From the IMG/VR virus record IMGVR_UViG_3300046000_000454, positions 1 to 21,918 of that record: a stretch of DNA of 21,918 nucleotides, one strand, 5' to 3'. The position numbers and the translations under genes are program-made. Position 1 is the first letter of the stretch. Every line of letters starts with the position of its first letter. The notes below the pieces were generated by a model. That model saw nothing but the letters and a program-made list of their open reading frames with translations, was not told the origin of the DNA and did no database searches. The stretch is from a virus. Below, piece after piece: positions 1 through 18,114 of this stretch.

Positions 1-285
1 GGGCAGATGATCCAGAATGTTGGCAAGTCTATTGAAATGCAAGACATGGAACGCAAGGACTTTGAGGCTCAGATCAAACTTTATGATGCTGAAACCAAAC
101 GAATTGCAGCAGTGCAGGCGGGTATGACTGAAGAGCAGATTCAAGACATTGCCATGGGCGTGGTTGCTGCGGCCATGGAGTCGCAAAACATCGTCAACCA
201 GATGCCTGATATGCGCGAAGAGTCCATGCCCATGGAAATGATGCCGCCAGAACAAATGATGCCTCCACAAGGAATGCCACAATGA
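1..285 (+). CDS. Portal protein, C-terminal fragment (cut by left edge)
   Basis: The frame is open to base 1, so this is the last 94 codons of a longer gene. The visible part is a charged helix (roughly visible residues 1-65) followed by a tail rich in methionine, proline and glutamine (repeated MPP and QMMPP). A helix ending in a low-complexity Met/Pro tail fits the C-terminus of podovirus portal proteins, which form the dodecameric ring at the capsid vertex through which DNA enters and leaves. Position agrees: P22-like phages place the portal upstream of scaffold and coat. The next gene starts inside the stop codon (ATGA), so translation is probably coupled. The assignment rests on context and C-terminal character, because the conserved portal core is outside the window. 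Confidence 0.6.
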   Translation, partial: GQMIQNVGKSIEMQDMERKDFEAQIKLYDAETKRIAAVQAGMTEEQIQDIAMGVVAAAMESQNIVNQMPDMREESMPMEMMPPEQMMPPQGMPQ

Positions 286-644
286 AAGCAAATGAATTTT
301 TAGGCTTGCTGTTTTTGGCGCGGGATGTTGCACATTCTGTGCATCTGAACACACGCAGCTTTAGCAAGCACGAAGCGCTCAATATCTTCTACAACCGCAT
401 TATTGGTGCGGCTGATGACTTTGCCGAAGCCTACCAAGGACGGTATGGTTTAATTGGCCCAATTACCTTGAATTCGGCTAAGAAAACGGCCAATGTGGTT
501 GAGTTTTTAGAAGATTCACTTGCTGAAATTGAAGCCGCAAGATACGATGTGTGTGATAAATCTGATTCATCGTTGCAACAATTGATAGATAATATTGTTG
601 AAATTTACCTCCGCACGTTATACAAGTTAAAATTCTTGGCATAA
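282..644 (+). CDS. Small helical phage protein of unknown function (DUF5856-like)
   Basis: This is a 120-aa soluble, mainly alpha-helical protein with no signal peptide or membrane span. The N-terminal half carries a run of the type FLARDVAHSVHLNTRS followed by an acidic patch around YNRIIGAADDFAEAYQG. From memory this resembles phage proteins annotated as DUF5856, with no established function. The start ATG overlaps the portal stop (ATGA), so the two are probably translated together. The pairing with portal suggests a packaging or virion-assembly role, but nothing in the sequence proves it. The helical, His- and Asp-containing composition could suggest a ferritin-like bundle, but I do not see a convincing metal motif. 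Confidence 0.6.
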   Translation: MKANEFLGLLFLARDVAHSVHLNTRSFSKHEALNIFYNRIIGAADDFAEAYQGRYGLIGPITLNSAKKTANVVEFLEDSLAEIEAARYDVCDKSDSSLQQLIDNIVEIYLRTLYKLKFLA

Positions 645-652
645 GGATCATC

Positions 653-961
653 ATGGAACTACTTAACCCAATGAGCAAAGCGGATTTTCCCGCTTTTACC
701 GCAACAGCAGGCGCTAGTGCTGGCAACACAACCGCATGGAACGCTGGCCCACAAGGTGTGCTAGTGTGGGCTGACGTGCCTTGCTATGTTGAGGTGGGTG
801 TTGGGGCTGTTGCCACCAGTGCCAGCACACCAATCCCCGCTTTCACACCTATTCCGTTTGTTCTAACACTCAGCACAAGCGGCGCGCCTTGGCGTGTCAG
901 TGTGATACGAATTGGTAGCACAGACGGCATTGCGTACTGCAAACCAATTAACAAGCAATGA
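653..961 (+). CDS. Small beta-rich virion protein, function unknown
   Basis: This 102-aa protein is rich in Ala, Thr, Val and Pro and looks like a single beta-sandwich. It has alternating hydrophobic strands (VLVWADVPCYVEVGVG; PWRVSVIRIG) and a conserved-looking end, YCKPINKQ. AAGGA precedes the ATG at good spacing, and the gene starts eight bases after the preceding one. Small proteins of this composition are common next to phage fibre and head genes, and I infer a structural or decoration role. There are no catalytic motifs, signal peptide or membrane segment. Its stop codon overlaps the next start (ATGA), so the 54-aa gene downstream is probably coupled to it. Confidence 0.55.
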   Translation: MELLNPMSKADFPAFTATAGASAGNTTAWNAGPQGVLVWADVPCYVEVGVGAVATSASTPIPAFTPIPFVLTLSTSGAPWRVSVIRIGSTDGIAYCKPINKQ

Positions 962-1122
962 GCTTTGGTGTCGCACTTCGCAACGCCGTAGGCATTGGCC
1001 TTGGTGGCATTGTCACGTTGTTTACTGGCACACGCGGTGGTGGTGTTGGGGTAGACAATTTGCTGTGCGAAAATGGTGACAATCTCGTCCAAGAGGACGG
1101 TGGCTTGATTCTTTTGGAGTGA
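958..1122 (+). CDS. 54-aa mini-protein, function unknown
   Basis: The ATG at 958 overlaps the stop of the previous gene (ATGA) and the frame runs 54 codons to TGA at 1120-1122. The N-terminal half is glycine-rich and mildly hydrophobic (residues about 5-30). The C-terminal half contains two degenerate copies of a short acidic beta motif: LLCENGDNLV, then QEDGGLILLE. Such short Leu-Glu-Asn-Gly-Asp repeats look like edge strands that add onto a larger beta structure. It fills an otherwise empty gap between two coding genes exactly, and its last codons carry the GGAG that serves the next gene at 1128. I infer a real, coupled virion mini-gene. Confidence 0.6.
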   Translation: MSFGVALRNAVGIGLGGIVTLFTGTRGGGVGVDNLLCENGDNLVQEDGGLILLE

Positions 1123-1127
1123 CCTAA

Positions 1128-1646
1128 ATGGCCGTATTTCTCTCCCCTGTGGGCGGTGCTGCAACGCAGTTCTTTGACAACTACGGCGTCATTTTATCTG
1201 GCGGGAAGTTATTCACTTATTCTGCTGGTACAACTACCCCTGCCGCCACGTTTACAACAATTGCGGGTAATGTTGCCCACACTAATCCTATTATTTTGGA
1301 TTCCGCTGGCCGAGTGCCAAGCGGTGAAATATGGCTAACAAGCTCAACACAATATAAATTTGTGTTGCAGACTTCTTTAAACGTACTAATTGCCACTTAT
1401 GACAATCTTTGGGGTATTGGTGCTGCTGGTGGCTCTGAGGTTAGCTCTCCTGTAATTTTTAACACTTCAGGTAACGGCTCAACTACCGTATTTTCATTAG
1501 GCGCTTCGCCAACCAGTGAAAACACCACAAATGTGTATATCAACGGTGTGTATCAGCAAAAGAATACATACACAGTGGTTGGGGCCACATTAACCTTTTC
1601 AACCGCACCGCCAACTACTTCAAGCATTGAAGTATCATTTACTTAA
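1128..1646 (+). CDS. Tail fibre / receptor-recognition protein with virion-anchor-type N-terminus
   Basis: The protein has 172 aa in two parts. Residues 1-95 resemble a domain that often begins phage fibres and tailspikes: MAVFLSPVGG, FDNYGVILSGGKLFTY, a Thr-rich linker, then HTNPIILDSAGRVPSGEIWL and a YKFVL...IATYDN strand pair. Residues about 105-172 form a second beta unit with GNGSTTVFSLG, NVYINGVYQQ and a final strand IEVSF, of the kind found in fibre tips. The GGAG in the end of the preceding gene supplies the Shine-Dalgarno site. It lacks an enzymatic beta-helix, so a short fibre or an adaptor carrying another fibre is more likely than a depolymerase. The exact role is inferred. Confidence 0.65.
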   Translation: MAVFLSPVGGAATQFFDNYGVILSGGKLFTYSAGTTTPAATFTTIAGNVAHTNPIILDSAGRVPSGEIWLTSSTQYKFVLQTSLNVLIATYDNLWGIGAAGGSEVSSPVIFNTSGNGSTTVFSLGASPTSENTTNVYINGVYQQKNTYTVVGATLTFSTAPPTTSSIEVSFT

Positions 1647-1658
1647 TCGGAGTTCATT

Positions 1659-2315
1659 ATGGCTGACGCAAAAATTTCCGCACTACCCGCCGCAACCACG
1701 CCCGTTGCGGGCACGGAAGTATTGCCGATTGTTCAAGCTGCAACAACAGTAAAGCTGGCTATCTCTGACATTACCCCAGGTCTTAGCGTTATCACAACAG
1801 CTAAAGGTGGCACTGGTCAAACGTCTTTGGCAGCGGCTAATATTCCTGTTACCAATGTAGCCAACACCTTTACTGGTACTCAGACATTTTCAGGCACATC
1901 ATCTGCTCAAGCCATTGTCCTAAACGATGCGGCTGAAGTGGCTACAGTTTCAGCTACTGCGGCTACTGGAACGATTAACTACGACATTACCACTCAGTCT
2001 GTCTTGTACTACACCACCAGTGCAAGTGCTAACTGGACTGTTAACTTCAGAGGTTCTAGCGGTACATCACTCGATACTTTGATGACTACAGGTCAATCAA
2101 TGACTGTGGCTTTTTTGGTGACTCAAGGTGCTACGGCTTACTACAATTCTGCTGTGCAGATTGATGGCACGACATCTGGAGTCACGACACGTTGGCTAGG
2201 TGGTGCGCCTACTGCGGGAAATGCAAGTGGCATTGATAGCTATCGTTATTTGATTATCAAGACAGGTAGCGCGACTTTTACAGTCTTGGCAAGCAACACA
2301 CAATTTAAGGCTTAA
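1659..2315 (+). CDS. Phage tail fibre-like structural protein
   Basis: This 218-aa protein begins with a common phage fibre opening, ADAKISALPAATTPVAGTEV (residues 2-21). It continues with the fibre motif AKGGTGQTSL (about 48-57) and a TGTQTFSGT repeat (about 72-80) of the type found in trimeric fibre shafts. Residues about 95-218 form a Thr/Ser-rich beta domain with aromatic strands (QSVLYYTTSASANWTVNF) that probably makes the globular end. A GGAG site precedes the ATG. It lies in a run of fibre-type genes, supporting a host-range role. There is no signal peptide, transmembrane segment or enzymatic motif. The fibre class is well supported; the receptor and stoichiometry are unknown. Confidence 0.7.
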   Translation: MADAKISALPAATTPVAGTEVLPIVQAATTVKLAISDITPGLSVITTAKGGTGQTSLAAANIPVTNVANTFTGTQTFSGTSSAQAIVLNDAAEVATVSATAATGTINYDITTQSVLYYTTSASANWTVNFRGSSGTSLDTLMTTGQSMTVAFLVTQGATAYYNSAVQIDGTTSGVTTRWLGGAPTAGNASGIDSYRYLIIKTGSATFTVLASNTQFKA

Positions 2316-2318
2316 ACC

Positions 2319-4268
2319 ATGCCATTACAAGCAACTTCTGGTGCGGCTAGTTACGATGCCTTTGGTGGTGGCGCGCCTGCTGGTGGTGCTAACTACATTG
2401 AGGATGTGTTTAGCACATATCTTTATTTAGGGACAAATTCGGCACAGACAATTACCAACGGAATTGATTTGGCGGGCAAAGGCGGCCTTATTTGGCAGAA
2501 ACAGCGTACATCTGCCATTAGGCATAGATTATTTAGTACAGCTTTGGCTCTAGGTGATGAATTAGCATCAAATTTAACAAGTGCGGTAACTAATGCTGGA
2601 AATGTAACGGCATATTCTTCTACTGGTTTTTCTATTGGCTCAAATATAAGTGACGTTGGGGAAACCTACGTCACTTGGACATTCCGCAAGCAACCAAAGT
2701 TTTTTGATATTGTGACTTATACGGGCGATGGCGTTGCTGGCAGAACCATTGCACATAATCTTGGTTCAACTCCTGGCTGTATGATTGTTAAATGCACAAG
2801 CGCAGGAAGTTTTTGGAGTGTTTACCATAGGTCAACAGGTGGCACACAAGTAGGACTTTTAAATGCAACTAGTTCATTTAGTGCGTCTTCTGCATATTGG
2901 AATGATACCGATCCAACATCAACTGTTTTTACTGTTGGTATTACGGGTAATGTAAATGATTCAGGTCAAACCTACGTAGCCTACTTATTCGCCCATGACG
3001 CAGGAGGCTTTGGTCTGACGGGTACGGACAATGTGATTTCGTGTGGGTCGTTTACTGCTACAACTAATATGTCTGTCAATTTGGGGTATGAACCTCAATG
3101 GTTAATGTTTAAAAAATCCAGTGCGGCGCAAGATTGGGTGATAGTAGACAATATGAGAAGGTGGGATTATCAAGAATCTAGAGCACTCAAACCAAATCTT
3201 GCTGATGCGGAAAATGCGCCTTTGTACTGCACACCAACTGCAACAGGGTTTTCTTCAGTTTCTGGTTTTGATACAGGCTCAACCTATATCTACATAGCCA
3301 TTCGCAGAGGCCCGATGAAAGTGCCTACTGTGGGGACTAGTGTGTTTGCGCCTGTTGCTTCAAATGCTTCAACTGGAACTTCACTTACGACAAACTTCCC
3401 TATTGATTTGCAAATGACTGCATTAAGGCCTGGCAATGCAGGCAATACTACATTTAGCACTCGTCTTATTGGTATTAACAGCCAAAACACAGCAGTACTT
3501 ACGCCTTATCTTGTATCTTCTTCAACTGCGGCAGAAACTACTGGTAGTGTGACTCGCTATTGGACAAACACTGGTTTTCAAATGCCAGGTGCTTTTGCGG
3601 GAACGGACACAATTTTTTGGAATCTGCAACGTGCCCCCTCCGTATTTGATGTGGTTTGCTATACAGGAACTGGAAGCGTTTTATCTTTGACACATAACTT
3701 AACAGTAGCTCCAGAGTTTATTCTTATAAAATCTAGGTCTGACAGTAGCTATTGGATAATTGGTGCTAACTTTGGCGCGTCTACGTATGCTTTAAAAGAC
3801 GATTGGGGGTATAACGCTTCTAATGCAAGCAGGGCATATTCATCAACTGTTGGCTTTAATGCTCAACCAACTTCAACGACAGTTTCTTTAAGTACCAATT
3901 CTGCTCTCAATGTTTCCGCAAGTACCTATGTAATGTATATGTGGGCTACCTGCGCTGGTGTTTCTAAAGTTGGCACATACACAGGTACAGGCGCATTACA
4001 AACCATCAACTGTGGTTTTACGTCTGGCGCAAGGTTTGTGTTGATTACTCGTATTGGTGTTGTTGGTGATGTAAACACTTATGTTTATGACTCAGCCCGT
4101 GGAATTTCATCAGGTAATGACCCCTATCTTTTGCTTGAAACTACATCCGCTGAAGTAACAGGTACTAATTATGTAGATACAACGAGCACGGGTTTTCAAG
4201 TCACAGCCGCAGCACCTGCAGGTTTAAATGCCTCTGGTGGCTCTTACATCTTCTTGGCTATCGCATAA
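2319..4268 (+). CDS. 649-aa modular tail protein with about six repeated beta modules
   Basis: The protein has a short Gly/Ala N-terminus (1-25) and then about six divergent modules of roughly 90-115 residues, beginning near residues 26, 128, 238, 340, 441 and 547. Several modules open with strands such as FDIVTYTGDG, FDVVCYTGTG or VGTYTGTG, followed by HNL-type turns and a strand ending in a Lys (MIVK, LMFKK, ILIK). All close with a Gly/Ser/Thr-Tyr strand: GETYVTWTF, GQTYVAYLF, GSTYIYIAI, DTIFWNL, STYVMYMW, GSYIFLAI. It lies among fibre and tailspike genes, so a receptor-binding or fibre-shaft role is likely. No enzymatic residues are evident. The Shine-Dalgarno (AAGG) is rather far from the ATG, and the gene directly follows its neighbour. 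Confidence 0.65.
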   Translation: MPLQATSGAASYDAFGGGAPAGGANYIEDVFSTYLYLGTNSAQTITNGIDLAGKGGLIWQKQRTSAIRHRLFSTALALGDELASNLTSAVTNAGNVTAYSSTGFSIGSNISDVGETYVTWTFRKQPKFFDIVTYTGDGVAGRTIAHNLGSTPGCMIVKCTSAGSFWSVYHRSTGGTQVGLLNATSSFSASSAYWNDTDPTSTVFTVGITGNVNDSGQTYVAYLFAHDAGGFGLTGTDNVISCGSFTATTNMSVNLGYEPQWLMFKKSSAAQDWVIVDNMRRWDYQESRALKPNLADAENAPLYCTPTATGFSSVSGFDTGSTYIYIAIRRGPMKVPTVGTSVFAPVASNASTGTSLTTNFPIDLQMTALRPGNAGNTTFSTRLIGINSQNTAVLTPYLVSSSTAAETTGSVTRYWTNTGFQMPGAFAGTDTIFWNLQRAPSVFDVVCYTGTGSVLSLTHNLTVAPEFILIKSRSDSSYWIIGANFGASTYALKDDWGYNASNASRAYSSTVGFNAQPTSTTVSLSTNSALNVSASTYVMYMWATCAGVSKVGTYTGTGALQTINCGFTSGARFVLITRIGVVGDVNTYVYDSARGISSGNDPYLLLETTSAEVTGTNYVDTTSTGFQVTAAAPAGLNASGGSYIFLAIA

Positions 4269-4277
4269 GGAATCATC

Positions 4278-4793
4278 ATGCAAATCAGAATTAAAGAATC
4301 AGGCGCAGTCATGTACGAAAGTGAATTTCGTGCATATCAACAATCCAATGGTGGCCCATCATGGGAAACAACAACAACTGAAGTCTTAGAGGCTTTGGGT
4401 GCTGATGTAGTCTTTGAAGGCGCACAAGCTACTGGTGGTGACCACTACCAATACTCTCAAGCAGATGGTGTCGAGCAGATTGATGGCAAGTGGTACACAA
4501 AACACATCCTTGGGCCAGTGTTTACAGATACACCCGCCACAGAAGAAGCCCCTGCTAAAACAGCCGCAGAACATGAGGCCGCATACAAAGCAGCCAAAGA
4601 CGCTGAACAGGCCAAGTCTGTGCGTCAAAGCCGTGATGACAAACTCAAAGAAACAGATTGGGTTGTGATTAAAAACTTGGAAGCAAATGCCAACATACCT
4701 AATGTTTGGGAAGTTTATCGCCAAGCATTAAGGGATGTACCTACACAAGAAGGCTTCCCTTGGACAATCGTTTGGCCTACGCAACCGGAGTAA
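4278..4793 (+). CDS. Tail assembly chaperone-like protein (Phage_tail_APC type)
   Basis: This is a 171-aa protein. The C-terminal 60 residues match the tail-fibre assembly chaperone pattern: R..RD.KL.ETDW (about 116-127), a helix with NVWEVYRQALRDVP, then GFPWTIVWPTQP at the end. The YRQALRD..TQ.GFP...WP signature is typical of small chaperones encoded next to tail fibre genes, which help fibres fold or assemble and need not stay in the virion. The N-terminal part is a small beta unit, and residues 85-115 are an Ala/Lys/Glu-rich helix. AAGGA precedes the ATG. Position just upstream of the tailspike suggests that the tailspike or the modular protein upstream is the client; this last point is inference. 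Confidence 0.75.
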   Translation: MQIRIKESGAVMYESEFRAYQQSNGGPSWETTTTEVLEALGADVVFEGAQATGGDHYQYSQADGVEQIDGKWYTKHILGPVFTDTPATEEAPAKTAAEHEAAYKAAKDAEQAKSVRQSRDDKLKETDWVVIKNLEANANIPNVWEVYRQALRDVPTQEGFPWTIVWPTQPE

Positions 4794-4796
4794 GAC

Positions 4797-6614
4797 ATGG
4801 CACTTACAAAAGTTTCTTATTCGATGATCACTGGCGCACCAGCCAATGTGCTTGACTTTGGTGCTGACCCAACTGGTGTGGCAAATAGCCAGCCAGCGAT
4901 CCAAGCCGCCATCAATTCAGGCGCAGTTGAGATCATTATTCCATCGGGGACATACCGCCTAAACTCTGGTTTAACAATCAGTAAGAATAATGCCGTTAAA
5001 AAGATCAGCGGCTTTGACATGTCAACAACTCTAAAGTTGTACACGGCTACTACTGCGTCTATTTTTGACATTCAATATATTGCACCGCCCCCTGAGACAA
5101 AACAGTTTTTCACCATTGAGAACCTGATTCTTGATTCCAACGGCACAAAGGCCGATGCCTTTTTAACCTACGGCATTTTCTCTACTGGCACGTCTTACGC
5201 CCAATTTAACAACATTCGTGCGACTAACTTCAGTGGTTCTGGTTGTGAAATTAAGGGTTGCGTTTACATTGGGATTAACAACTATACGGCTGGTGAATGC
5301 CGATACGGTTTAGCTTTTGAACTGAACTTGGGAACTGCTTGCACCTCGGTTGTGGTTGATCGTGCGTATATATCTGGTTGCTTGCGTGGCATCACGCAGA
5401 CCAACGCCAACAACATGACATACATTAACTGCGTCATTGAGTACAGTGGCAGTAGCACGACAACTGATGGTGCGATTCACCTTGCTGGTGGTATGGCTGA
5501 AATCATCACGCCTTACTTTGAAATCAATGGCAGAAACTTTGTCAGTATTGAAGGCTCACCAGTTATTGTGCAACCTTATGGTTGGACAAGCGGCACTGCG
5601 GCTAACGTCGTCACCTATGGTGCTTTATCGTTTGATGAACGTGGCGTAACGCTACAGTATCCCTACAATTTATATCTGCCAAGAATTAACGCAGACATTA
5701 CGTCCAATCGTGATTTGGTGATTGGTACAAATCTCACTGTGCCTGTTGCTGGCGGTAGCGTCATTTTTGGTAACGAGACAATGGATTCTGCCAATGGGTT
5801 TCTTACTAATGGCGCATGGTCAAACACTTACGCTATCCCTGCATCTGAAAGCACAGGGTCAGCCGCTAACTCAAAAGCATTGTATGAGTACACATGCTAT
5901 GCGGGTGCAGCCGATCTAAGCACAGGTTTTGATGCTGGCACGATTATGAATGGCACATTGCGTAGCTACTCTGGCTCAAATCCTGCTTGGTTAAGATTGG
6001 TGGGTGGTAGCTTGGCATCAGTAGCAATCACTGGTACTGCGGGTCAGTTTAGTTGCACAGCCTCAACATTGACTGAGGGAATGGCCGTAACGATTGCGGG
6101 AACATTTGGCGGTACAGGTTCTATTACGGGTTACACCGATCCTAAGACATACTACATTATCACCACAAACGGCACGACAACATTTACTTTGTCTAGCACC
6201 TATAACACGGGTACTTTGTCAACAGTTGTAATTACTGGAACTTCTGGGCAATTTAGCTGTGCTGCCACAACATTGACTGTTGGCGCATCGATCACAATCT
6301 CTGGCACTTTGGGTGGCACTGGAACAATTACAGGTTACAGCGACCCAACAACCTATTACATCATTGCCACTAATGGAAGCACAACATTTACCTTGTCTGC
6401 GTCTGTAGGCGGTGTAGCAATAACAACAACTGTGGGAACGCCAACAGGCTTGACCTATACATTGGGTAACGTAGCCCTGACAACAACCGCTGGCACGCCA
6501 ACAGGTCTGACCTACACCATTCCTAGTTATGTTCAGATGAATGTTACGAGTACAACTTACGGCTTGACATATAAAATTGTCATGCGTAGGGTATTCCCAG
6601 GCGTTGCTGTATAA
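4797..6614 (+). CDS. Tailspike with pectate-lyase-type right-handed beta-helix
   Basis: The protein has 605 aa. Residues 18-40 (NVLDFGADPTGVANSQPAIQAAI) are the classic opening of the Pectate_lyase_3 / tailspike beta-helix fold, followed by IIIPSGTYRL. Residues about 40-310 continue as short alternating strands with many Asn and Gly turns (CEIKGCVYIGINNY, MTYINCVIEYSG), as expected for a parallel beta-helix that binds and often cleaves surface polysaccharide. Residues about 320-405 are a separate beta domain. Residues 409-544 contain two 68-residue tandem repeats, followed by a short 19-residue repeat and a C-terminal domain. A GGAG lies before the ATG. The catalytic acids cannot be assigned from sequence alone, so depolymerase activity is probable but unproven. 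Confidence 0.8.
   Translation: MALTKVSYSMITGAPANVLDFGADPTGVANSQPAIQAAINSGAVEIIIPSGTYRLNSGLTISKNNAVKKISGFDMSTTLKLYTATTASIFDIQYIAPPPETKQFFTIENLILDSNGTKADAFLTYGIFSTGTSYAQFNNIRATNFSGSGCEIKGCVYIGINNYTAGECRYGLAFELNLGTACTSVVVDRAYISGCLRGITQTNANNMTYINCVIEYSGSSTTTDGAIHLAGGMAEIITPYFEINGRNFVSIEGSPVIVQPYGWTSGTAANVVTYGALSFDERGVTLQYPYNLYLPRINADITSNRDLVIGTNLTVPVAGGSVIFGNETMDSANGFLTNGAWSNTYAIPASESTGSAANSKALYEYTCYAGAADLSTGFDAGTIMNGTLRSYSGSNPAWLRLVGGSLASVAITGTAGQFSCTASTLTEGMAVTIAGTFGGTGSITGYTDPKTYYIITTNGTTTFTLSSTYNTGTLSTVVITGTSGQFSCAATTLTVGASITISGTLGGTGTITGYSDPTTYYIIATNGSTTFTLSASVGGVAITTTVGTPTGLTYTLGNVALTTTAGTPTGLTYTIPSYVQMNVTSTTYGLTYKIVMRRVFPGVAV
6021..6428 (+). repeat. Tandem 204-bp repeat (two copies) in tailspike gene
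   Basis: Copies lie at 6021-6224 and 6225-6428 and encode residues 409-476 and 477-544. Both share the frame ITGT.GQFSC.A.TLT, then GT.GGTG.ITGY.DP.TYYII.TNG.TTFTLS. The DNA has diverged more than the protein, which implies selection on the encoded beta module. A shorter 57-bp repeat (6414-6470 and 6471-6527; TTT.GTPTGLTYT) partly overlaps the end of the second copy. Confidence 0.85.
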
Positions 6615-6675
6615 ATTAGTGTAAGATTAAACTGTATCGGCCCAGTTGACCGAGGAATCTTAGGATTCAGAAAAA

Positions 6676-7464
6676 ATGACTCAAGAAGTCCAAGCCCTAG
6701 CGGAAGTAGACTCCGCGCCAACCACGGATGTGACGGCCACACCTGAAGTTGCTGAAAGTACGCCGGAAGTCGCTGAGAATCAAGTCGAGCAAGCTGAAGA
6801 GAAAAAATACTCCCAAGCTGAAATTGACGCGATGATTGGCAAACGCCTCGCAAGAGAGCAACGTAAGTGGGAAAGAGAACAATTAAATCGGTCTGCGGAA
6901 ACGCAAATCGTGAAAGCTGCGCCAACTGCATCCGTTGACCAGTTTGAAAGCCCTGAAGCCTATGCGGAAGCATTGGCCTATCAAAGAGCTGAAGAACTGA
7001 TTGCCAAACGTGAAGCGGCCAAGCAGCAATCGGCTGTTCTTGAGAGTTATCACGATCTTGAAGAAGAAGCTAGGACAAAGTACGACGATTTTGAACAAGT
7101 CGCCTACAACCCTAAACTTCCTATTACCAACGTGATGGCTGAAACGATCCAGTCTTCGGACATTGGGCCTGAGTTAGCGTACTACCTTGGCTCAAATCCA
7201 AAAGAAGCGGATCGAATCTCACGCATGACGCCACTCGGTCAGGCGAAAGAAATTGGGAAAATTGAGGCCAAATTGGTTTCAACGCCCCTGATTAAGAAAA
7301 CAACATCTGCGCCAGCGCCGATTTCTCCTGTCACCGCACGCTCCGTTGGAGTGTCGGCTTATGACACTACTGATCCAAGGTCTACCAAGACCATGACGGA
7401 TTCGCAGTGGATTGAAGCTGAACGCAAACGACAGATAAAGAAGTGGGAAGCGCAGAACCGCTAA
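6676..7464 (+). CDS. Scaffolding protein (P22 gp8-like)
   Basis: This 262-aa protein is strongly helical and charged. Residues 1-45 are acidic and disordered (repeated EVAE). Residues about 45-125 are a long coiled coil (QAEIDAMIGKRLAREQRKWE, then AEALAYQRAEELIAKREAAKQQ). The last 25 residues form a Lys/Arg-rich helix (QWIEAERKRQIKKWEAQNR), matching the basic C-terminal helix by which P22-type scaffolds bind coat protein. P22 gp8 is 303 aa, so the size is compatible. The gene lies 27 bases before the coat gene, the standard position. Scaffold guides procapsid assembly and then leaves. AGGA lies somewhat far from the ATG and within a weak hairpin. No protease domain is visible. Confidence 0.8.
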   Translation: MTQEVQALAEVDSAPTTDVTATPEVAESTPEVAENQVEQAEEKKYSQAEIDAMIGKRLAREQRKWEREQLNRSAETQIVKAAPTASVDQFESPEAYAEALAYQRAEELIAKREAAKQQSAVLESYHDLEEEARTKYDDFEQVAYNPKLPITNVMAETIQSSDIGPELAYYLGSNPKEADRISRMTPLGQAKEIGKIEAKLVSTPLIKKTTSAPAPISPVTARSVGVSAYDTTDPRSTKTMTDSQWIEAERKRQIKKWEAQNR

Positions 7465-7491
7465 AACTTTGACTTTTTTGAAAGGACTGAA

Positions 7492-8694
7492 ATGTCTAAT
7501 AGTATTCTGACGATTGACATGATCACCCGTAAGGCTCTCGAAATCCTCGAGAACAACTTGGTGATCACCCGTAACGTAAACCGCCAATATGACGACTCTT
7601 TCGCTGTTGAAGGCGCAAAAATCGGCTCTACATTGCGTATCCGTTTACCTGACCGCGCTTTGGTTACTGACGGAGCCGCCTTGCAAGTGCAAGACGACAA
7701 CGAGCAGTTCACCACACTGACTGTTGCTTCACAAAAGCACATCGGTGTTAACTTCACATCTGCTGAATTGACCATGCAATTGGACGACTTTGCAGAGCGT
7801 GTGTTAAAGCCTCGTATCAGCCAATTGGCATCTTCTATTGATGCTGACGTGGCCAATGCGTACAAATCCATCGGTAACACCGTTGGTACACCTGGCACTA
7901 CGCCCGCAACTTCTTTGGTCTTGCTCCAAGCCCAACAGAAGCTGAACGAAAACGCCGCTGTGATGAACCCCCGTTACGCCACTGTCAACCCTGCCGCTAA
8001 CGCTGGTTTGGTTGAAGGCATGAAGGGTTTGTTCAATCCTACAGACACCATCAGCAAGCAGTTTAAGAACGGCATGATGGGCACTGGCGTGTTGGGCTTT
8101 GACGAGATCAACATGTCTCAGTCTATCAAGCAGCACACAACTGGCTCACGCGTTGCCACTGGTAACTCTGTGACCACCACTGTGGCTTCTCAAGGCGCTG
8201 CAAGCATTGCTTTGACTATTGGCTCTGGCCTGACAGTTAAAGCCGGTGACGTGTTCACTGTTGCTGATTGCTTTGCTGTGAACCCACAGACCCGTGAATC
8301 CACTGGTTCGTTGTTCCAGTTCGTAGCTTTGGCTGATGCAACTGCTGTTAGCACTGCAATCACTGTGACTGTTGCTCCTATCTACACTTCTGCCAATGCT
8401 TTGGCCACCGTGGACAGCTTCCCTACCGCTGGTAAGGCCGTTGTGTTCGTTGGTGCGGCTTCTAGCCAGTACGCTCAGAACTTGGTCTATCACAAAGATG
8501 CGATCACGTTTGCCACTGCGGACTTGTTGTTGCCACAAGGCGTTGACATGGCTGCTCGCGCAGTTCACAACGGTATCTCTTTGCGTGTCGTGCGTCAGTA
8601 CGATATTAACAATGACCGTATGCCTTGCCGTATTGACGTTTTGTACGGTTTCAATACGATCCGTCCACAAATGGGCTGCCGCATCTGGGGCTAA
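7492..8694 (+). CDS. Major capsid (coat) protein, P22 gp5 family
   Basis: This 400-aa protein has the organisation of the P22 coat family, whose P22 member is 430 aa. The N-terminal helix MITRKALEILENNLVITRNVNRQYD is followed by a strand region IGSTLRIRLPDR, then the E-loop-like segment and spine helix (FAERVLKPRISQLASSIDADV). NPAANAGLVEGMKGLFNP follows in the central domain, then a Thr/Val-rich inserted beta domain (about residues 225-320) and a final strand region ending PQMGCRIWG. Coat protein forms the icosahedral shell by the HK97 fold. AAAGGA sits six bases before the ATG. A strong terminator-like hairpin follows eight bases after the stop, which suggests a separately controlled, abundant transcript. 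Confidence 0.92.
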   Translation: MSNSILTIDMITRKALEILENNLVITRNVNRQYDDSFAVEGAKIGSTLRIRLPDRALVTDGAALQVQDDNEQFTTLTVASQKHIGVNFTSAELTMQLDDFAERVLKPRISQLASSIDADVANAYKSIGNTVGTPGTTPATSLVLLQAQQKLNENAAVMNPRYATVNPAANAGLVEGMKGLFNPTDTISKQFKNGMMGTGVLGFDEINMSQSIKQHTTGSRVATGNSVTTTVASQGAASIALTIGSGLTVKAGDVFTVADCFAVNPQTRESTGSLFQFVALADATAVSTAITVTVAPIYTSANALATVDSFPTAGKAVVFVGAASSQYAQNLVYHKDAITFATADLLLPQGVDMAARAVHNGISLRVVRQYDINNDRMPCRIDVLYGFNTIRPQMGCRIWG

Positions 8695-8701
8695 TCTGAA
8701 C

Positions 8702-8718
8702 GGGGCTTCGGCCCCTTT
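8702..8718 (+). terminator. Intrinsic terminator after coat gene
   Basis: The hairpin is GGGGC (8702-8706), loop TTCG (8707-8710), GCCCC (8711-8715), followed by TTT. The UUCG loop is an exceptionally stable tetraloop. The short U-run suggests partial termination, leaving some read-through into the next gene. Confidence 0.75.
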
Positions 8719-8747
8719 CGTCTTAACATCTTTTTAAGGAAATTATC

Positions 8748-9155
8748 ATGGCTTTACCTAATGGCGCAGGCGGTTATCAAATTGGTGACGGCAACTTGCT
8801 CGAAGCACAACTGACGGTTCAAACTATTCCCACAACCTTGACTGGCGACACTACGTTGACCGCTGATCAAGTAGTTGTTGGTTTGGTTGTTTGCAACAAA
8901 GGCAGCGATGCTACATTGACCGTGACTCTGCCCACAGCAGCGTTGCTTGATGCAGCCGTTCCTAGCGCAAAAGTTGGCTCTGCTTTTGAGTTAACAATCT
9001 GCAACAACAACAACACCGGAGCATCGTCTACCGTTCCTGTTACCACAGGCACTGGCGTTACGATCTTTGGTTCTGTGACTGTTCCACGTTTCGGCGCACA
9101 CACATACCGTTTTGTGCGTACTGGCGACGCGGCTTACTCGGCCTTCTTGAAGTAA
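8748..9155 (+). CDS. Probable capsid decoration or head-associated protein
   Basis: This 135-aa protein is mainly beta, rich in Thr, Val and Gly. An N-terminal segment, YQIGDGNLLEAQL, precedes strands TLTADQVVVGLVVCNKGS and ATLTVTLPTAALLDAA. These are followed by AFELTICNNNN, VTTGTGVTIFGS and a C-terminal HTYRFVRTGDAAYSAFLK. It has no catalytic motif, signal peptide or membrane segment. Its place directly after coat, a good AAGGAAA Shine-Dalgarno site and its own downstream terminator suggest an abundant virion component such as a capsid decoration or stabilising protein. This is inference; a head fibre is the main alternative. It does not resemble phage lambda gpD closely enough to claim homology. 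Confidence 0.6.
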   Translation: MALPNGAGGYQIGDGNLLEAQLTVQTIPTTLTGDTTLTADQVVVGLVVCNKGSDATLTVTLPTAALLDAAVPSAKVGSAFELTICNNNNTGASSTVPVTTGTGVTIFGSVTVPRFGAHTYRFVRTGDAAYSAFLK

Positions 9156-9158
9156 ACA

Positions 9159-9181
9159 ATGGGGGCTTCGGCCCTCATTTT
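9159..9181 (+). terminator. Intrinsic terminator after the first accessory head gene
   Basis: ATGGGGGC (9159-9166), loop TTCG, GCCCTCAT (9171-9178) form an 8-bp stem with a single G-U pair, running into TTTT at 9178-9181. The stem begins with an ATG, which creates a spurious upstream start for the next gene; that start is not used here. Confidence 0.85.
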
Positions 9182-9183
9182 AA

Positions 9184-9188
9184 AAGGA
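9184..9188 (+). promoter_or_regulatory. Ribosome binding site that fixes the 9195 start
   Basis: AAGGA lies six bases before ATG 9195. The in-frame ATG at 9159 lies inside the terminator stem and has no such site, so 9195 is the preferred start. Confidence 0.75.
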
Positions 9189-9194
9189 ACAACT

Positions 9195-9608
9195 ATGACC
9201 TCTAATACCAAATCAATTGGCGTTGCTTTTGAAGACCAAGACATCATTGGGTCTAACTTTGTACTGGCTGGTGGCGAGTTGGGCTACACCGCAGAAGCAA
9301 GCGGCACAGTGACTCAATTGACAGACAAGTCCACAGCGGTCACGCTGAACAAGTCTGCTGGTCAGATCACACTGAACGGCGCCTCTTTGGCAAACATTAC
9401 AAATGTTTCGTTCACTTTGAACAACAGCACAATCAGCGCCAATGATGTTGTAATTCTGAGCGTTGCGTCTGGTGCTACCGCTGGTGCTTACAACTGCTGG
9501 ATTTCTAGCAAAACCTCTGGAAGTTGCGTAATCACAATACGCAACTTTTCGGGAGGGGCGCTGTCTGAGGCTTTTGTACTAAACTTTGCTGTACTCCACG
9601 TCCTGTAA
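9195..9608 (+). CDS. Second accessory virion protein, beta-rich
   Basis: With the start at 9195 the protein is 137 aa. Residues 1-35 (MTSNTKSIGVAFEDQDIIGS...) lead into a beta-sandwich-like domain. In that domain SKSAG-type, SFTLNNSTISANDVVIL, GATAGAYNCWI and SCVITIRNFSGGALSEAFVLNFAV strands follow in order. The last segment resembles a domain that I recall from many uncultured phage head or fibre proteins; this is memory, not a search. The gene is bracketed by two terminators and has a good AAGGA site, so like its neighbour it is probably abundantly expressed and virion-associated. Decoration protein, head fibre or short tail component are all possible. Confidence 0.6.
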   Translation: MTSNTKSIGVAFEDQDIIGSNFVLAGGELGYTAEASGTVTQLTDKSTAVTLNKSAGQITLNGASLANITNVSFTLNNSTISANDVVILSVASGATAGAYNCWISSKTSGSCVITIRNFSGGALSEAFVLNFAVLHVL

Positions 9609-9611
9609 ACC

Positions 9612-9636
9612 AAAAGGGGGCTAATCACCCCCTTTT
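9612..9636 (+). terminator. Symmetric intrinsic terminator after the second accessory gene
   Basis: AAAAGGGGG (9612-9620), a 7-base loop CTAATCA, and CCCCCTTTT (9628-9636) form a perfect 9-bp stem. A-tract and U-tract flank the G/C core, so it could act in both directions. Confidence 0.9.
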
Positions 9637-9641
9637 CTAAT

Positions 9642-9827
9642 ATGAACATTACTCTAGTCCATCCTGTCCACGGCGCTAAAATTGCCACAATGGAACTTGA
9701 AGCCGAAACAGATGAAAAAAATGGCTGGACTCGTTATAATCCAGATACGTCTTCTGAACTTGAAGCGGCTCCTGTAAACGTGCTGGAAGTTAAACGCCGT
9801 AGAAAAGTGACTACTGAAGAGGTCTAA
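9642..9827 (+). CDS. 61-aa small phage protein, function unknown
   Basis: The protein starts MNITLVHPVHGAKIATMELEA and continues to NGWTRYNP, an acidic stretch and a basic C-terminal patch (EVKRRRKVTTEEV). The pattern is a small N-terminal beta hairpin with a charged tail. Similar short proteins often lie between coat and neck genes in P22-like phages from environmental samples; this is recollection. The ATG lies only five bases after a strong terminator and has no visible Shine-Dalgarno site. Either translation is weak, or the hairpin stem contributes to initiation on the read-through transcript. The stop lies two bases before the gp4-like gene, so coupling downstream is likely. Its conserved-looking composition argues for a real gene. 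Confidence 0.65.
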   Translation: MNITLVHPVHGAKIATMELEAETDEKNGWTRYNPDTSSELEAAPVNVLEVKRRRKVTTEEV

Positions 9828-9829
9828 GC

Positions 9830-10543
9830 ATGACAACGTACACCGCTGGCGAACAAATCAATCGGGCGCTTCGGCTCCTTGGCGTGCTTGCTGAAGGTGA
9901 AACGCCCTCTGCGGCCACGTCACAAGACGCTTTGATGGCGCTCAATCAGATGATTGACAGTTGGAACACTGAGCGTTTGTCGGTGTTTTGCACAGAAGAT
10001 CAGGTTTTTACTTGGCCTGCAAGTCTTATCAGCCGCACACTTGGCCCAACAGGTGACTTTGTAGGCAACCGTCCTATTTTGCTAGACGATGCAACATACT
10101 TCAAAGCGCCTAGTGGCGTGTCGTATGGCATCAAGATGATCAACCAACAGCAGTACAACGGTATTGCTGTTAAGACCGTTACGTCCACGTTCCCACAAGT
10201 TATGTGGGTCAACATGACGTTTCCTGATATTGAGATATACCTCTATCCAAGGCCCACGGAAAACTTAGAGTTTCATTTTGTGTCGGTGCAAGAATTAGAC
10301 AAGCCCGCTACCTTGTCAACAGTGTTGGCTTACCCGCCTGGCTATCTGCGTGCGTTCACATACAACTTGGCTATGGAGTTTGCCCCTGAGTTTGGCGTTG
10401 AGCCAAGCCCACAGGTTCAGCGTATTGCCATGACTTCTAAGCGTGATCTCAAGCGCATCAACAACCCAGATGACGTGATGGCGCTGCCTTACGCATTAGT
10501 GGCCAACCGCCAGCGTTTCAACATCTATGCCGGTAACTACTAA
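9830..10543 (+). CDS. Head-to-tail adaptor, P22 gp4-like
   Basis: This 237-aa protein starts with a helical segment (TAGEQINRALRLLGVLAEGE, then SQDALMALNQMIDSWN) of the P22 gp4 tail-accessory type. A middle beta region with FDIEIYLYPRP-like strands follows (here FPDIEIYLYPRPTENLEFHF). The end is helical: YLRAFTYNLAMEFAPEFGVEPS, then RIAMTSKRDLKRIN. gp4 of P22 is 166 aa, so this member is longer. It binds below the portal ring, closes the channel after packaging and provides the docking site for tail parts; the P22 protein also has a reported muralytic activity, which I cannot judge here. GAGG lies before the ATG. The next gene overlaps its stop by one base, in the P22 order 4-10. Confidence 0.85.
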   Translation: MTTYTAGEQINRALRLLGVLAEGETPSAATSQDALMALNQMIDSWNTERLSVFCTEDQVFTWPASLISRTLGPTGDFVGNRPILLDDATYFKAPSGVSYGIKMINQQQYNGIAVKTVTSTFPQVMWVNMTFPDIEIYLYPRPTENLEFHFVSVQELDKPATLSTVLAYPPGYLRAFTYNLAMEFAPEFGVEPSPQVQRIAMTSKRDLKRINNPDDVMALPYALVANRQRFNIYAGNY

Positions 10544-11982
10544 TGAAGACGCCGATTCTTGGCTCTAGTTATGTGGCACGTAGCGTCAACGCTGCGGATG
10601 CCAGAATGGTCAATCTTTTTCCTGAGATTGTTCCTGAGGCTGGTAAAGAGCCTGCGTTCCTAAACCGCGCCCCAGGCTTGCGTTTGCTCAACACCATTGG
10701 CACTGGCCCGATTCGTGGCCTATGGGCTTTCTCATCAAACGATGGCATTGCCTTTGTCATATCGGGCATTGAGCTTTATAAAATCGACAATGCTTATGCG
10801 GCCACATTGATTGGCACGGTGTATGGCACTGGAGCAGTTAGCATGGCCGACAATGGCACGCAACTGTTCATTGCGGCCAACGGCCCTAGTTACATCTACA
10901 ACAACACAACAGGCGCATTTGGGCAGATTACTGACCCAGACTTCCCAGGCGCGGTGACGGTGTGCTTTCTAGACGGCTACTTTGTGTTTAATGAGCCAAA
11001 TAGCCAAAAGATGTGGGTCACTGAATTGCTTGATGGCACGTCCATTGATCCTTTAGAGTTTGCTAGTACAGAAGGCTCACCTGATGGGCTAGTCGCCGTG
11101 GCGTCCAACTTCCGCGAAGTATGGGCGTTTGGCACAAACTCAATTGAAGTCTGGTACAACACCGGATCGACTGATTTCCCTTTGCAACGCATTCAAGGTG
11201 CGTTTAATGAGTTAGGTTGCGCAGCGCCTTACTCAGTGGCCAAAATGGACAATGGCTTGTTCTGGCTTGGCCGTGACCGTCGTGGCCAAGGTATTATCTA
11301 CCGCGCCAATGGTTATACAGGTGTTCGCATTTCAACCCACGCGGTTGAATGGCAGATTCAGCAGTACAGCGATTTAACTGACGCTATTGGCTACACATAC
11401 CAGCAAGACGGCCACAGTTTTTATGTACTGATTTTTCCTAACGCTAACACAACGTGGGTCTATGACGCGGCAACGCAAGTGTGGCATGAGCGTGCTGGTT
11501 TTATTGACGGAGAGTTTACCCGTCATCGTAGCAATTGCCAGATGGCATTCAACAACCTGGTTGTTGTTGGCGACTACCAAAATGGCAACATCTATGCGTT
11601 TGACTTAGATGATTTTAGCGACAACGGGGGCATCCAAAAATGGCTGCGTTCTTGGCGTGCATTGCCTACGGGCACAAACACTCTTAAAAGAACAACCCAA
11701 CACACCCTGCAACTTGACTGCGAGTCTGGCGTAGGCTTAAACCTTGGCCAAGGCAGTGAGCCTCAAGTCATGCTCCGCTTCTCAGATGACGGTGGCCACA
11801 CTTGGTCAAACGAGCATTGGCGGTCTATGGGAAAAATCGGCGAATATTACAAGCGTGTAATTTGGCGTCGTTTAGGCATGACGGTTAAATTGCGTGACCG
11901 CGTGTATGAGTTGTCGGGCACTGACCCTGTGAAAATTACGATCATGGGCGCTGAACTCATTTTGAGTCCAACGAATGCCTAG
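10543..11982 (+). CDS. Packaged DNA stabilisation / tail hub protein, P22 gp10-like
   Basis: At 479 aa this is close to P22 gp10 (472 aa). The N-terminal opening, LGSSYVARSVNAADARMVNLFPEI followed by a short APGLRLL segment, is typical of the family. Repeated Trp- and Tyr-containing strands then follow (RGLWAFSS, REVWAFGTNSIEVWYNTG, GLFWLGRDRRG, TTWVYDAATQVWHERAG), consistent with a beta-propeller-like hub. The C-terminus holds LRFSDDGGHTWSNEHW. In P22, gp10 caps the gp4 ring and holds the needle and tailspikes. It directly follows the gp4-like gene and overlaps the needle-like gene by eight bases. The family call is strong; the detailed contacts are inferred from P22. Confidence 0.88.
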   Translation: MKTPILGSSYVARSVNAADARMVNLFPEIVPEAGKEPAFLNRAPGLRLLNTIGTGPIRGLWAFSSNDGIAFVISGIELYKIDNAYAATLIGTVYGTGAVSMADNGTQLFIAANGPSYIYNNTTGAFGQITDPDFPGAVTVCFLDGYFVFNEPNSQKMWVTELLDGTSIDPLEFASTEGSPDGLVAVASNFREVWAFGTNSIEVWYNTGSTDFPLQRIQGAFNELGCAAPYSVAKMDNGLFWLGRDRRGQGIIYRANGYTGVRISTHAVEWQIQQYSDLTDAIGYTYQQDGHSFYVLIFPNANTTWVYDAATQVWHERAGFIDGEFTRHRSNCQMAFNNLVVVGDYQNGNIYAFDLDDFSDNGGIQKWLRSWRALPTGTNTLKRTTQHTLQLDCESGVGLNLGQGSEPQVMLRFSDDGGHTWSNEHWRSMGKIGEYYKRVIWRRLGMTVKLRDRVYELSGTDPVKITIMGAELILSPTNA

Positions 11983-12613
11983 CCCTAACGCTACACCAAC
12001 GCCAGTCACGCCCCCGCGAGTGCCGCTGACTGACCCTCGCACGGGCTTAATTGACCGTGCTTGGTTCATGTTTTTTGTGTCGCTATATAACGCAAGCGAA
12101 GAAAAAGGCGGCGACATTAACCCTGATGTTGTGTCTCTGGTTGCGTCTTATGATGAGTTTTTGCGGACTATCAGTCAAGAATTGCAGACCTTACCGCCAA
12201 GTTTAGAATCTCAAATAGCTGAACTGCAAAAGCAGATTGAGGCTTTAGAGTTACAACCTGTTAGCGTTAGCGTGGTCGCTTCAGGCGGCTCAACATTAAC
12301 TGCGCCAGTGACTGTAACGGCCAATTATTCGATTGCCGATACAGACGCTTGGATTATCAACAACAAGACTGGCTCGGCCTTGATATTGACGTTTCCTAGC
12401 CCCTCGGCGTGGTCTGGCCGTGTCATCACGGTTAAGAACATGCAGGCTCAGTTGGTTAACTCAGCATCAAGCAACATTGTGCCGCTAGATAGTACGTCGG
12501 CTGGCACTGCAATTCTCTTGGCAGTTGTAGGAAATTGGGCGACAATGGTGTCTGACGGCACTAATTGGGTCATTATGCAAGCTGCCTCTAACAACAATTT
12601 GCTTTTGGAGTAA
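11975..12613 (+). CDS. Probable tail needle or plug protein, gp26-like by position
   Basis: This 212-aa protein has three parts. Residues 1-40 contain a Pro-rich segment and RTGLIDRAWFMFFVSLYN. Residues about 58-93 form a coiled coil (YDEFLRTISQEL, then LESQIAELQKQIEALEL). Residues about 100-212 form a beta domain with NKTGSALILTFPSPSAW, GRVITVKN and NWATMVSDGTNWVIMQ. It follows gp4- and gp10-like genes exactly as the needle gene 26 does in P22 (233 aa). A short N-terminal anchor, trimeric coiled coil and C-terminal tip fit a needle that plugs the channel and touches the cell surface. No direct sequence match to P22 gp26 is claimed; a short fibre is the main alternative. Confidence 0.6.
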   Translation: MPSPNATPTPVTPPRVPLTDPRTGLIDRAWFMFFVSLYNASEEKGGDINPDVVSLVASYDEFLRTISQELQTLPPSLESQIAELQKQIEALELQPVSVSVVASGGSTLTAPVTVTANYSIADTDAWIINNKTGSALILTFPSPSAWSGRVITVKNMQAQLVNSASSNIVPLDSTSAGTAILLAVVGNWATMVSDGTNWVIMQAASNNNLLLE

Positions 12614-12616
12614 ACC

Positions 12617-12952
12617 ATGACTGTCACAGTAAAAGTTCTTGTACCGGCAAAATTTGCCGAGGCAACCCAAACAACGCAGTACACCTCAACGGGTGTTACA
12701 ACCCTTATTGACAAATTTACGGCCACCAACATTACTGCGTCGGCCGCTACAATTTCTGTCAATTTGGTCACAACTGCTGATTCTGCTGGTAATACAAACT
12801 TAATTACTAAGACCAAATCACTTCAGGCGTCTGAAGTTTATACGTTCCCTGAATTGGTTGGCCAAGTGCTTGGAGTTGGTGACTTTATTAGTACAATTGC
12901 AGGCACGGGCAGTGCAATCAATATTCGCGTTTCTGGACGTCAGGTGACTTAA
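12617..12952 (+). CDS. 111-aa beta-rich virion-associated protein, function unknown
   Basis: The protein is mainly Thr/Val/Ala beta strands: TVTVKVLVPAKF, TTLIDKFTATNITASAATISVNLVT, then SEVYTFPELVGQVLGVGDFISTIAG, and INIRVSGRQV at the end. No signal peptide, membrane span or catalytic motif is visible. GGAG lies before the ATG and its stop overlaps the cupin start by one base. It lies between the needle-like gene and the ejection genes, where P22 carries the head-assembly gene 14, but it does not resemble that protein as far as I can tell. A small decoration or tail-tip protein is a reasonable inference. Confidence 0.55.
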   Translation: MTVTVKVLVPAKFAEATQTTQYTSTGVTTLIDKFTATNITASAATISVNLVTTADSAGNTNLITKTKSLQASEVYTFPELVGQVLGVGDFISTIAGTGSAINIRVSGRQVT

Positions 12953-13293: not shown

Positions 13294-13294
13294 T

Positions 13295-17803: not shown

Positions 17804-18024
17804 TGGACACGCAAGTTCTTTTTAACATCGCGGTAAGTTTAGCGGGGTTCTTAGGGGGTTGGGTGCTGAATAACATCTACAGATCGCTTGAGCGCCTTGA
17901 CACCGACGTGCGGGCTATGCCACTCAACTACGTCACCCGCGACGACTACCGCGCTGACATGCGTGACATTAAAGAAATGCTTGGTAAGATATTTGACAAA
18001 CTAGACAACAAAGTAGACAAATGA
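17803..18024 (+). CDS. Small membrane protein with C-terminal coiled coil
   Basis: This 73-aa protein has a hydrophobic segment at residues about 6-25 (LFNIAVSLAGFLGGWVLNNI). An amphipathic stretch follows (YRSLERLDTDVRAM), then YVTRDDYRADM and a coiled-coil tail (IKEMLGKIFDKLDNKVDK). One N-terminal span plus a charged helix is the layout of inner-membrane spanins and of some holin partners. It opens the lysis region; the start overlaps the stop of the 818-aa gene by one base and the Shine-Dalgarno site is weak. No lipoprotein partner is visible nearby, so the spanin assignment is open. Confidence 0.65.
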   Translation: MDTQVLFNIAVSLAGFLGGWVLNNIYRSLERLDTDVRAMPLNYVTRDDYRADMRDIKEMLGKIFDKLDNKVDK

Positions 18025-18113: not shown

Positions 18114-18114
18114 T

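Follow-up and report, generated by a model that had tools for sequence, protein, structure and literature searches.

The 21,918-base stretch analyzed here (the window, at its full length) is the linear virus record IMGVR_UViG_3300046000_000454 of IMG/VR, whose first base lies inside a portal gene. Its genes run in the order portal, DUF5856, a block of seven open reading frames (ORFs), scaffold, coat, gp4-like, gp10-like, a second fiber-like group, ejection-type genes and lysis genes (Table 1). The block, which spans 653-6614 as the initial annotation had correctly placed it, includes a chaperone, a fiber and a spike gene; it is considered here together with a structured RNA leader that separates it from the scaffold gene. 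The second ORF of the block (958-1122) fell under the 60-amino acid (aa) limit of the first ORF listing and was taken from a separate ORF call. Neither this ORF nor the one at 653 matched any Pfam or PHROG family, and the predicted structure of the 653-961 product was poor, with a predicted local distance difference test (pLDDT) score of 59.2. No PDB match was obtained for the DUF7483 fiber (2319-4268), and the spike matched six PDB entries, all P2X receptor sequences, which we judged to be chance. The family matched by the DUF5856 protein, phrog_858, bears the label transcriptional regulator. A DNA search of the whole window against named phages returned one match, of 68 bp.

Table 1. Features of the window and, in the last rows, comparable RNA elements at positions in related loci (L numbers).
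Feature	Position	Strand	Evidence or remark
Portal C-terminal end (left flank)	1-285	+	37-98% aa identity in clade loci where matched
DUF5856 protein (conserved left flank)	282-644	+	PF19174, 5.3e-19; 62-100% aa identity in clade loci where matched
102-aa protein, family F7, first slot gene	653-961	+	protein clustering
54-aa protein, family F9	958-1122	+	overlaps preceding ORF; called in 11/14 F7-bearing blocks
172-aa adaptor	1128-1646	+	DUF4183 and phrog_26190; head-binding domain 1140-1409, DUF4183-like C-terminal part
218-aa fiber-linked protein	1659-2315	+	phrog_5906; first gene of the run common to L222
649-aa fiber with DUF7483 domains	2319-4268	+	PF24299, 1.7e-71
Tail-fiber assembly chaperone (Phage_tail_APC)	4278-4793	+	PF16778, 1.6e-19
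605-aa pectate-lyase-like spike, two copies of a 68-aa repeat	4797-6614	+	PF12708, 7.9e-9
Possible -10 element TAAGAT	6622-6627	+	sequence inspection
Structured scaffold leader	6630-6668	+	covariation and model matches
Leader stem S1	6630-6634/6643-6647	+	covariation
Leader stem S2 (pseudoknot with S1)	6637-6640/6650-6653	+	covariation
Leader hairpin after pseudoknot	6655-6659/6664-6668	+	covariation
Scaffold (right flank)	6676-7464	+	phrog_8865, 5e-29
P22-type coat	7492-8694	+	PF11651, 2.4e-38, whole protein covered
gp4 homolog	9830		phrog_12985 and phrog_637
gp10 homolog	10543		phrog_578, 2e-136
Second fiber-like group after gp10 (212, 111, 113 aa)	11975-13293	+	head-binding-domain slot in other relatives
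ORF in the place of gp16	15347-17803		no PHROG match; followed by small genes, endolysin at 18875
RNA element before F13	L002 4883, L008 5947, L059 8781, L078 1559		strict pattern
RNA element before F13	L220 2199, L226 7559, L228 2632, L231 5871		strict pattern
Comparable scaffold leaders in relatives	L082 22687-22741; L094 17995-18036

The order of the portal, scaffold, coat, gp4, gp10 and ejection genes is that of P22 (Lederbergvirus), with which the window also has in common a head-binding domain of the tailspike kind, located in the protein encoded at 1128. The two genomes differ between portal and scaffold, where P22 has 13 nt and no gene and the window 6,390 bp, and in the site of the spike. 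The P22 record (portal 1702-3879, scaffold 3893-4804, gene 16 11484-13313, tailspike 16204-18207) bears out the order given in the initial annotation, with the tailspike after gene 16, whereas in the window the spike gene (4797-6614) precedes scaffold at 6676 and fiber and tailspike genes thus do stand ahead of the head genes. The nearest named records, DSL-LC05 (OR003940, proposed 'Luchaoviridae') and ctNMl277 (MW202483), have coat proteins 80-81% identical to that of the window and, like it, the order portal, DUF5856, receptor-like genes, scaffold and coat; the DSL-LC05 portal aligns over the portal place in contig G033, which is near-identical to the window. DSL-LC05 and the window have the slot in common and are 80% identical in coat, 78% in gp10 and 65% in DUF5856, but the spike and fiber genes of both named records differ from those of the window, and ctNMl277 carries its head-binding domain after gp10 and not in the portal-scaffold slot. 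The taxonomy and predicted hosts of DSL-LC05 are among the topics of PMC10611076, in whose main text the terms 'tailspike' and 'tail spike' do not occur.

A search with the coat protein gave at least 80 IMG/VR loci at 85-97% identity, and the 80 listed, together with DSL-LC05, ctNMl277 and the window, make up a clade of 83 sequences. The interval from DUF5856 to scaffold (interval A) is complete in 41 of these, the window included, and measures 325-344 bp in seven, 638 bp in one and 1,555-6,193 bp in 33, that of the window (6,031 bp) being the second largest of the 41. The seven short intervals hold one ORF of 88-92 aa (family F5). Elsewhere the slot mostly carries F5 (88-100 aa) or F12 (91-101 aa) instead of the F7 of the window, with none of the three found by clustering in L068, L072 and L073, and no homology of the three families to one another was detected by hhalign. 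Among more distant phages with a P22-type coat, a slot gene is lacking in P26218 (where the genes overlap), PBR31 (78 bp), BA3 (73 bp) and P22 itself, and PAE2 has one small gene in the slot and no receptor block; the exception is ctkAd229 (L088), with ~3.1 kb in the portal-scaffold slot. In ctn9Y15 and cta1H496 fiber genes lie between coat and gp4. Filling of the portal-scaffold slot is thus customary in the lineage, though neither universal within it nor confined to it, and the lineage-specific order that had been offered as one explanation of the window holds for the placement of the block (33 of 41 complete clade intervals are filled) but not for its contents, which are not inherited with the site.

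The comparison of close relatives proposed in the initial annotation gave the result that had been anticipated there, in that the block varies while the flanking genes stay conserved; a block common to all relatives, at one place and equally diverged, which had been named there as the mark of an ordinary lineage trait, is not what was observed. The coats of L003, L006 and L008 are 96-97% identical to that of the window at the aa level and the flanks are 87-90% identical in DNA (DUF5856 87-89%, scaffold 87-89%, coat 88-90%), whereas the interior is replaced: the adaptor gene at 1128 aligns over 39-79% of its length and the gene at 1659 over 18% or less, the genes at 2319, 4278 and 4797 do not align in DNA, and at the protein level only part of the 4797 product matches. 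Across the 15 relatives with complete intervals (24 were compared), the gene at 2319 aligns in one, L042, and that at 4797 in none. L042 has the 2319-4278 pair in common with the window (52% aa identity over 97% and 42% over 99%, respectively), and the spike gene of L015, whose block is cut by the contig end, has 82% DNA identity to that of the window over 98%. In L042, L016 and L067 it is at the scaffold-proximal end of the block that the adaptor gene is found. Block genes are exchanged singly or in small runs, the flanks being conserved and the interior replaced gene by gene.

Some of the same genes occur in other settings. L220 contains window positions 4418-6614 at 94% DNA identity, ending at the spike stop codon (the spike protein is 97% identical), and ~1 kb past the spike, with two small ORFs between, it has lysis genes with 94, 84 and 81% aa identity to those of the window; one chaperone-spike pair is thus located beside scaffold in the window and near related lysis genes in L220. 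In L222, as in the window, a 1659-like gene is followed by DUF7483, chaperone and spike genes in that order (spike 88% identical), and its DNA homology to the window falls into four main pieces extending from 1659 to 6617, with 77% identity in chaperone and spike. The major head protein of L222 belongs to phrog_371 (Pfam Mu-like gpT just above threshold), and no match to a P22-type coat was found in its 32-kb contig. Near-identical chaperone and spike DNA and the run 1659-6614 therefore occur elsewhere, and with another capsid protein. In L228 (contig G037) the fiber and spike (85%) lie ahead of lysis genes, and the core matches of this contig are all partial (coat 22-24%, portal 28%, gp10 29%). 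Homology to the window stops at 6614 in L220, L226, L228 and L233 and at 6617 in L222. Of 544 confirmed DUF7483 loci 80 were kept, and five of these have P22-type core genes in the fetched stretch, three of the five being contigs near-identical to the window; many of the remaining loci are short fragments. Copies of the spike and fiber at 100% are present in three contigs (L218/L219/L221 and L242-L244), L218 corresponding to window 4-12611 at 100% after rounding.

The spikes also vary in length. The 12 spike relatives examined (L218-L231) form three size classes of 605 aa (four), 517-518 aa (three) and 429-432 aa (five), with two, one and no detected copies, respectively, of the 68-aa repeat found at window 6021-6404.

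The first ~90 residues of the 1128 protein match the head-binding domains of the cyanophages Pam1 (7eeq, E-value 1.6e-15) and Pan3 (9vyg, 1.4e-13) in a profile search against the PDB. The predicted structure of the protein (pLDDT 71.9) matches 7eeq with a template modeling (TM) score by target of 0.69 and a Foldseek E-value of 1.5e-3, and the P22 head-binding domain 1lkt weakly (0.55 and 0.1). CBA120 TSP4, the best Foldseek match by E-value (2e-4), was not used, its TM scores being 0.35/0.25. In Pam1 and Pan3 the domain starts a long spike, whereas in the window it is on a separate 172-aa protein. By profile search this domain (hereafter the anchor) was detected in 54 of 95 sequences, 53 with one copy and ctkAd229 with two, and was assigned to site A (DUF5856-scaffold) in 26, B (gp10-gp14) in 17, C (coat-gp4) in two and E (after gp14) in nine; the counts within the clade are 26, 17, 0 and 3. 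The C loci are L087 and L091, the latter placed by hand owing to a spurious DUF5856 match. Many of the 41 domain-negative sequences are fragments spanning only some slots, and of the 32 whole contigs 25 have one copy of the domain and seven have none. The anchor is present once per positive locus (53 of 54) yet is differently placed in different relatives, including two with a minimal slot: in L065 it lies after the homolog of window 15347-17803, in the place of gp16, which is the P22 arrangement, and in L058 between gp10 and gp14. The contig of L065, G023, is 53.6 kb long, the next longest of the 32 being 38.5 kb.

The form of the anchor protein differs between sites as well. A stand-alone domain protein of 159-172 aa is found in 18 of the 26 A-site rows, and the gp10-gp14 rows are all of at least 238 aa except the cut L036, leading us to suspect that a one-piece spike was split into an adaptor and separate receptor proteins at the portal-scaffold slot. 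The fewest changes of site required are 12 on the coat tree (46 rows), nine on the gp4 tree (37), nine on the scaffold tree (42; L073 was dropped for a stop) and seven on the gp10 tree (34), the last against a shuffled mean of 13.4 with 0/200 shuffles as low. The anchor tree itself (54 rows from 53 loci, 100 columns, L036 left out) requires eight, against a shuffled mean of 24.0 with 0/200 as low. That there was more than one change of place is the safe statement.

We consider it very probable that the block is a modular, exchangeable receptor-recognition cassette, for which the interval from DUF5856 to the scaffold leader is a preferred but optional slot in the freshwater phages of the DSL-LC05 group. 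Because the anchor sites vary and the run recurs elsewhere, we view the block as a cassette in one of several permitted slots. In such a cassette the 172-aa adaptor would dock on the tail hub as the N-terminus of the P22 tailspike does, and would carry the fiber and spike, which in turn would supply specificity. Swapping most probably proceeds by homologous or illegitimate recombination at gene borders or conserved gene starts, without a dedicated mobility enzyme, and the slot may tolerate cargo because the capsid genes to its right would have their own promoter and leader. The relocated or acquired cassette of the initial annotation is in this respect upheld for the contents, but a single move of the whole 6 kb as a unit relative to P22 is not, as the genes at 653 and 958 behave as genes resident at the site and several exchanges are required.

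Several points weigh against this reading. A receptor role for the genes at 653, 958 and 1659 is suggested by their position, and L220 is a 7.9-kb fragment with no capsid genes on it. Since a search of the block ends for direct and inverted repeats of at least 14 nt found none, and no recombinase or endonuclease family was matched among the seven ORFs (Pfam, PHROG), the mechanism of exchange is putative. As to the sites, in seven of the 26 A loci the contig begins inside the block, so that the domain is placed there only as lying upstream of scaffold, and six of the 17 B loci stop short of any gp14 match. The anchor tree is poorly resolved and groups strongly by site. The core genes recombine too, the head genes doing so in short segments: in L009 the DNA identity to the window reaches 92% for coat and 90% for gp4 yet drops to 69% for scaffold and 72% for gp10. 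Because of this recombination of core genes, the counts of site changes overstate movement.

Recombination of this kind is also the basis of the alternative that survives best, which we nevertheless regard as unlikely, namely that the receptor genes stayed where they were while coat-gp4 segments recombined between two lineages, both stable, whose anchors are at A and at B, respectively. It is in keeping with L009, L012 and L014, which have 95-97% aa identity to the window in coat and 64-67% in scaffold and gp10, and with the clustering of sites on the gp10 tree, but the anchor tree still requires its eight changes over four sites and places the A-site loci L016 and L042 next to the B-site locus L048, and near-identical spike DNA lies at another position in L220. 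More doubtful again is a true mobile element, or a block that rides with homing endonucleases cutting near scaffold or gp4. Such a process would suit the insertions seen in some relatives (~0.6-0.7 kb in the scaffold-coat gap, ~0.5-1.7 kb in the gp4-gp10 gap), as it would the annotated endonuclease between gp4 and gp10 of ctNMl277 and family F26, HNH-like by eye, which occurs once each in slots A, B and D; the lack of terminal repeats and of mobility enzymes among the seven ORFs, described above, counts against it. Least probable is an ordinary lineage trait, inherited vertically and merely diverging faster than the head genes, as might be suggested by the slot being filled in 33 of the 41 complete clade intervals, those of DSL-LC05 and ctNMl277 among them, for vertical descent predicts the reverse of what is seen and is already contradicted for the interior, which is unaligned at 96-97% coat identity while chaperone and spike DNA is 94% (L220) and 77% (L222) identical elsewhere, in the latter case beside another capsid protein.

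Having established the variability of the block, we consider the leader at its right border, the elements of which are, in order, S1, a loop UA, S2, the S1 partner, a short loop, the S2 partner and a hairpin. The structure was drawn up by eye on an alignment of 46 distinct clade leaders and then counted. The three helices have 86.0% paired cells compared with 75.2 in shuffled alignments (0/500 as high), a covariation score of 0.347 compared with 0.159 (0/500 as high) and two-sided changes at 10 of 14 pairs compared with 6.2 (3/500), and the signal was destroyed when partners were slid by 1-3 columns; further pair types showed no excess (17 versus 15.5 in the control, 113/500 as high). One S1 pair is CG in 25 leaders, UA in 19, UG in one and broken in none, and conservation is weak at the two outer A-U pairs of S1 (18 and 33 of 46). 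The folding energy of the window leader is no better than that of shuffles (z -0.31), and RNAalifold on the leader alignment returned three S1 pairs only; the case for the leader rests on the counted covariation. Energy folding yields either S1 or S2, not both. S1 and S2 both co-vary, and the two may form simultaneously as a pseudoknot. A search of Rfam 15 gave no match to the window at the gathering score, and for 6560-6720 only chance-level matches at E-values up to 5.

A model built without S1 gave 68 matches in 1.44 Mb at E-values up to 1, with a single match in each of 67 of the 83 clade sequences, of which 46 had been used to build the model and 21 were independent of it. Each match ends within a span from 42 nt upstream to 1 nt downstream of the scaffold start (66 checked, with the start estimated from alignments). 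The 68th match, a weak one (E-value 0.34), is between portal and scaffold of Thalassomonas phage BA3. In 15 of the 16 unmatched clade sequences the scaffold gene is missing or the sequence starts at or within it; the remaining one is ctNMl277, whose leader was missed by the model.

The element extends beyond the clade. Searches with BA3-type and cta1H496-type coats gave at least 115 loci, and from the 115 listed we removed 18 with too little upstream DNA, one with no scaffold ORF and 12 duplicates, keeping 84 wide leaders. A pseudoknot score of at least 24 was reached by 57 of these, compared with 1/84 in-gene controls and 71/4,200 shuffles; with the first loop ending in UA the counts were 51/84, 0/84 and 1/4,200, and with the first loop exactly UA 47/84 against 0/4,200 shuffles. 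The strict pattern, which was picked after seeing the leaders and was applied to loci that partly overlap, had 85 matches in ~3.05 Mb versus two in one shuffle per sequence. Seventy-four of the matches lie before scaffold, eight before family F13 (phrog_6228), a small gene after the spike or closing the receptor block, and three elsewhere. When one S2 mismatch was allowed, the element was present ahead of nine of the 13 F13-like ORFs whose upstream DNA was long enough (one contig being counted twice). A scaffold-only operator, first suggested by the single copy per clade sequence, is less likely because the element also stands before F13.

Across 48 wide leaders there is a TTGACA-17-TATAAT pattern (each position 43-64%), and its placement would start transcription near the first base of S1. 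The F13 leader lies directly 3' of the spike stop in L220, L226 and L228, and transcription may therefore not begin at the first base of S1 in all copies. Among 41 clade leaders 25 contain a hexamer resembling a -10 element, compared with 7.4 expected, and among 48 wide leaders 25 do, compared with 15.8; the clade set has no clear -35. The -10 candidate of the window is four bases closer to the pseudoknot than the family norm; no good -35 was found in the window, and the promoter scan gave no promoter-like site here.

The most probable role of the leader is one exerted on the 5' part of the capsid message, either switching its translation or setting its stability. We would also raise, tentatively, the possibility that P22-type-coat phages of several lineages have in common an undescribed RNA device that coordinates capsid assembly with the receptor module. 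The scaffold-coat transcript would then begin with the element or close to it, F13 would have the element in front of it too, both leaders would be read by a single trans-acting factor or by the translation machinery, and the slot would adjoin the leader because leader and promoter insulate capsid expression from the upstream cassette. The leader of T4 gene 32 contains a pseudoknot, and scaffold synthesis in P22 is autoregulated. The window leader resembles that of gene 32 as a predicted pseudoknot in the leader of a phage gene, and it is unlike P22, which has only 13 nt before scaffold. In the literature listings and the opening parts of abstracts searched, no treatment of this slot or leader was recognized. 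The leader provides a concrete candidate for how P22-type phages outside the P22 genus control scaffold and coat synthesis.

Receptor proteins of modular build are familiar, chiefly from the swapping of domains at one fixed locus. As outlined in PMC8262889, the receptor-binding proteins of Klebsiella phages combine an N-terminal anchor module with a C-terminal specificity module. Those of the window are likewise modular, but here groups of several genes are also found at different genomic positions. In the phages compared here a single-copy anchor domain is found at four genomic slots across those with a P22-type coat, one clade alone using three of the four, and phages with different capsid proteins have a receptor group of several genes in common; the host range of uncultured freshwater phages can therefore not be read from gene position.

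Two other intervals among the head genes vary in content. Between gp4 and gp10 (e.g., L031 and L032) there are nine ORFs of families F16 and F20 (199-251 aa), whose start, ALPxAT..VLPIVQ, resembles that of the 1659 gene, making this interval a further slot for fiber-linked genes. The gap between scaffold and coat is 582-681 bp in L002, L004, L013, L022, L024, L045, L046 and L076, a size that would suit a small inserted gene, and 8-63 bp in the other clade sequences.

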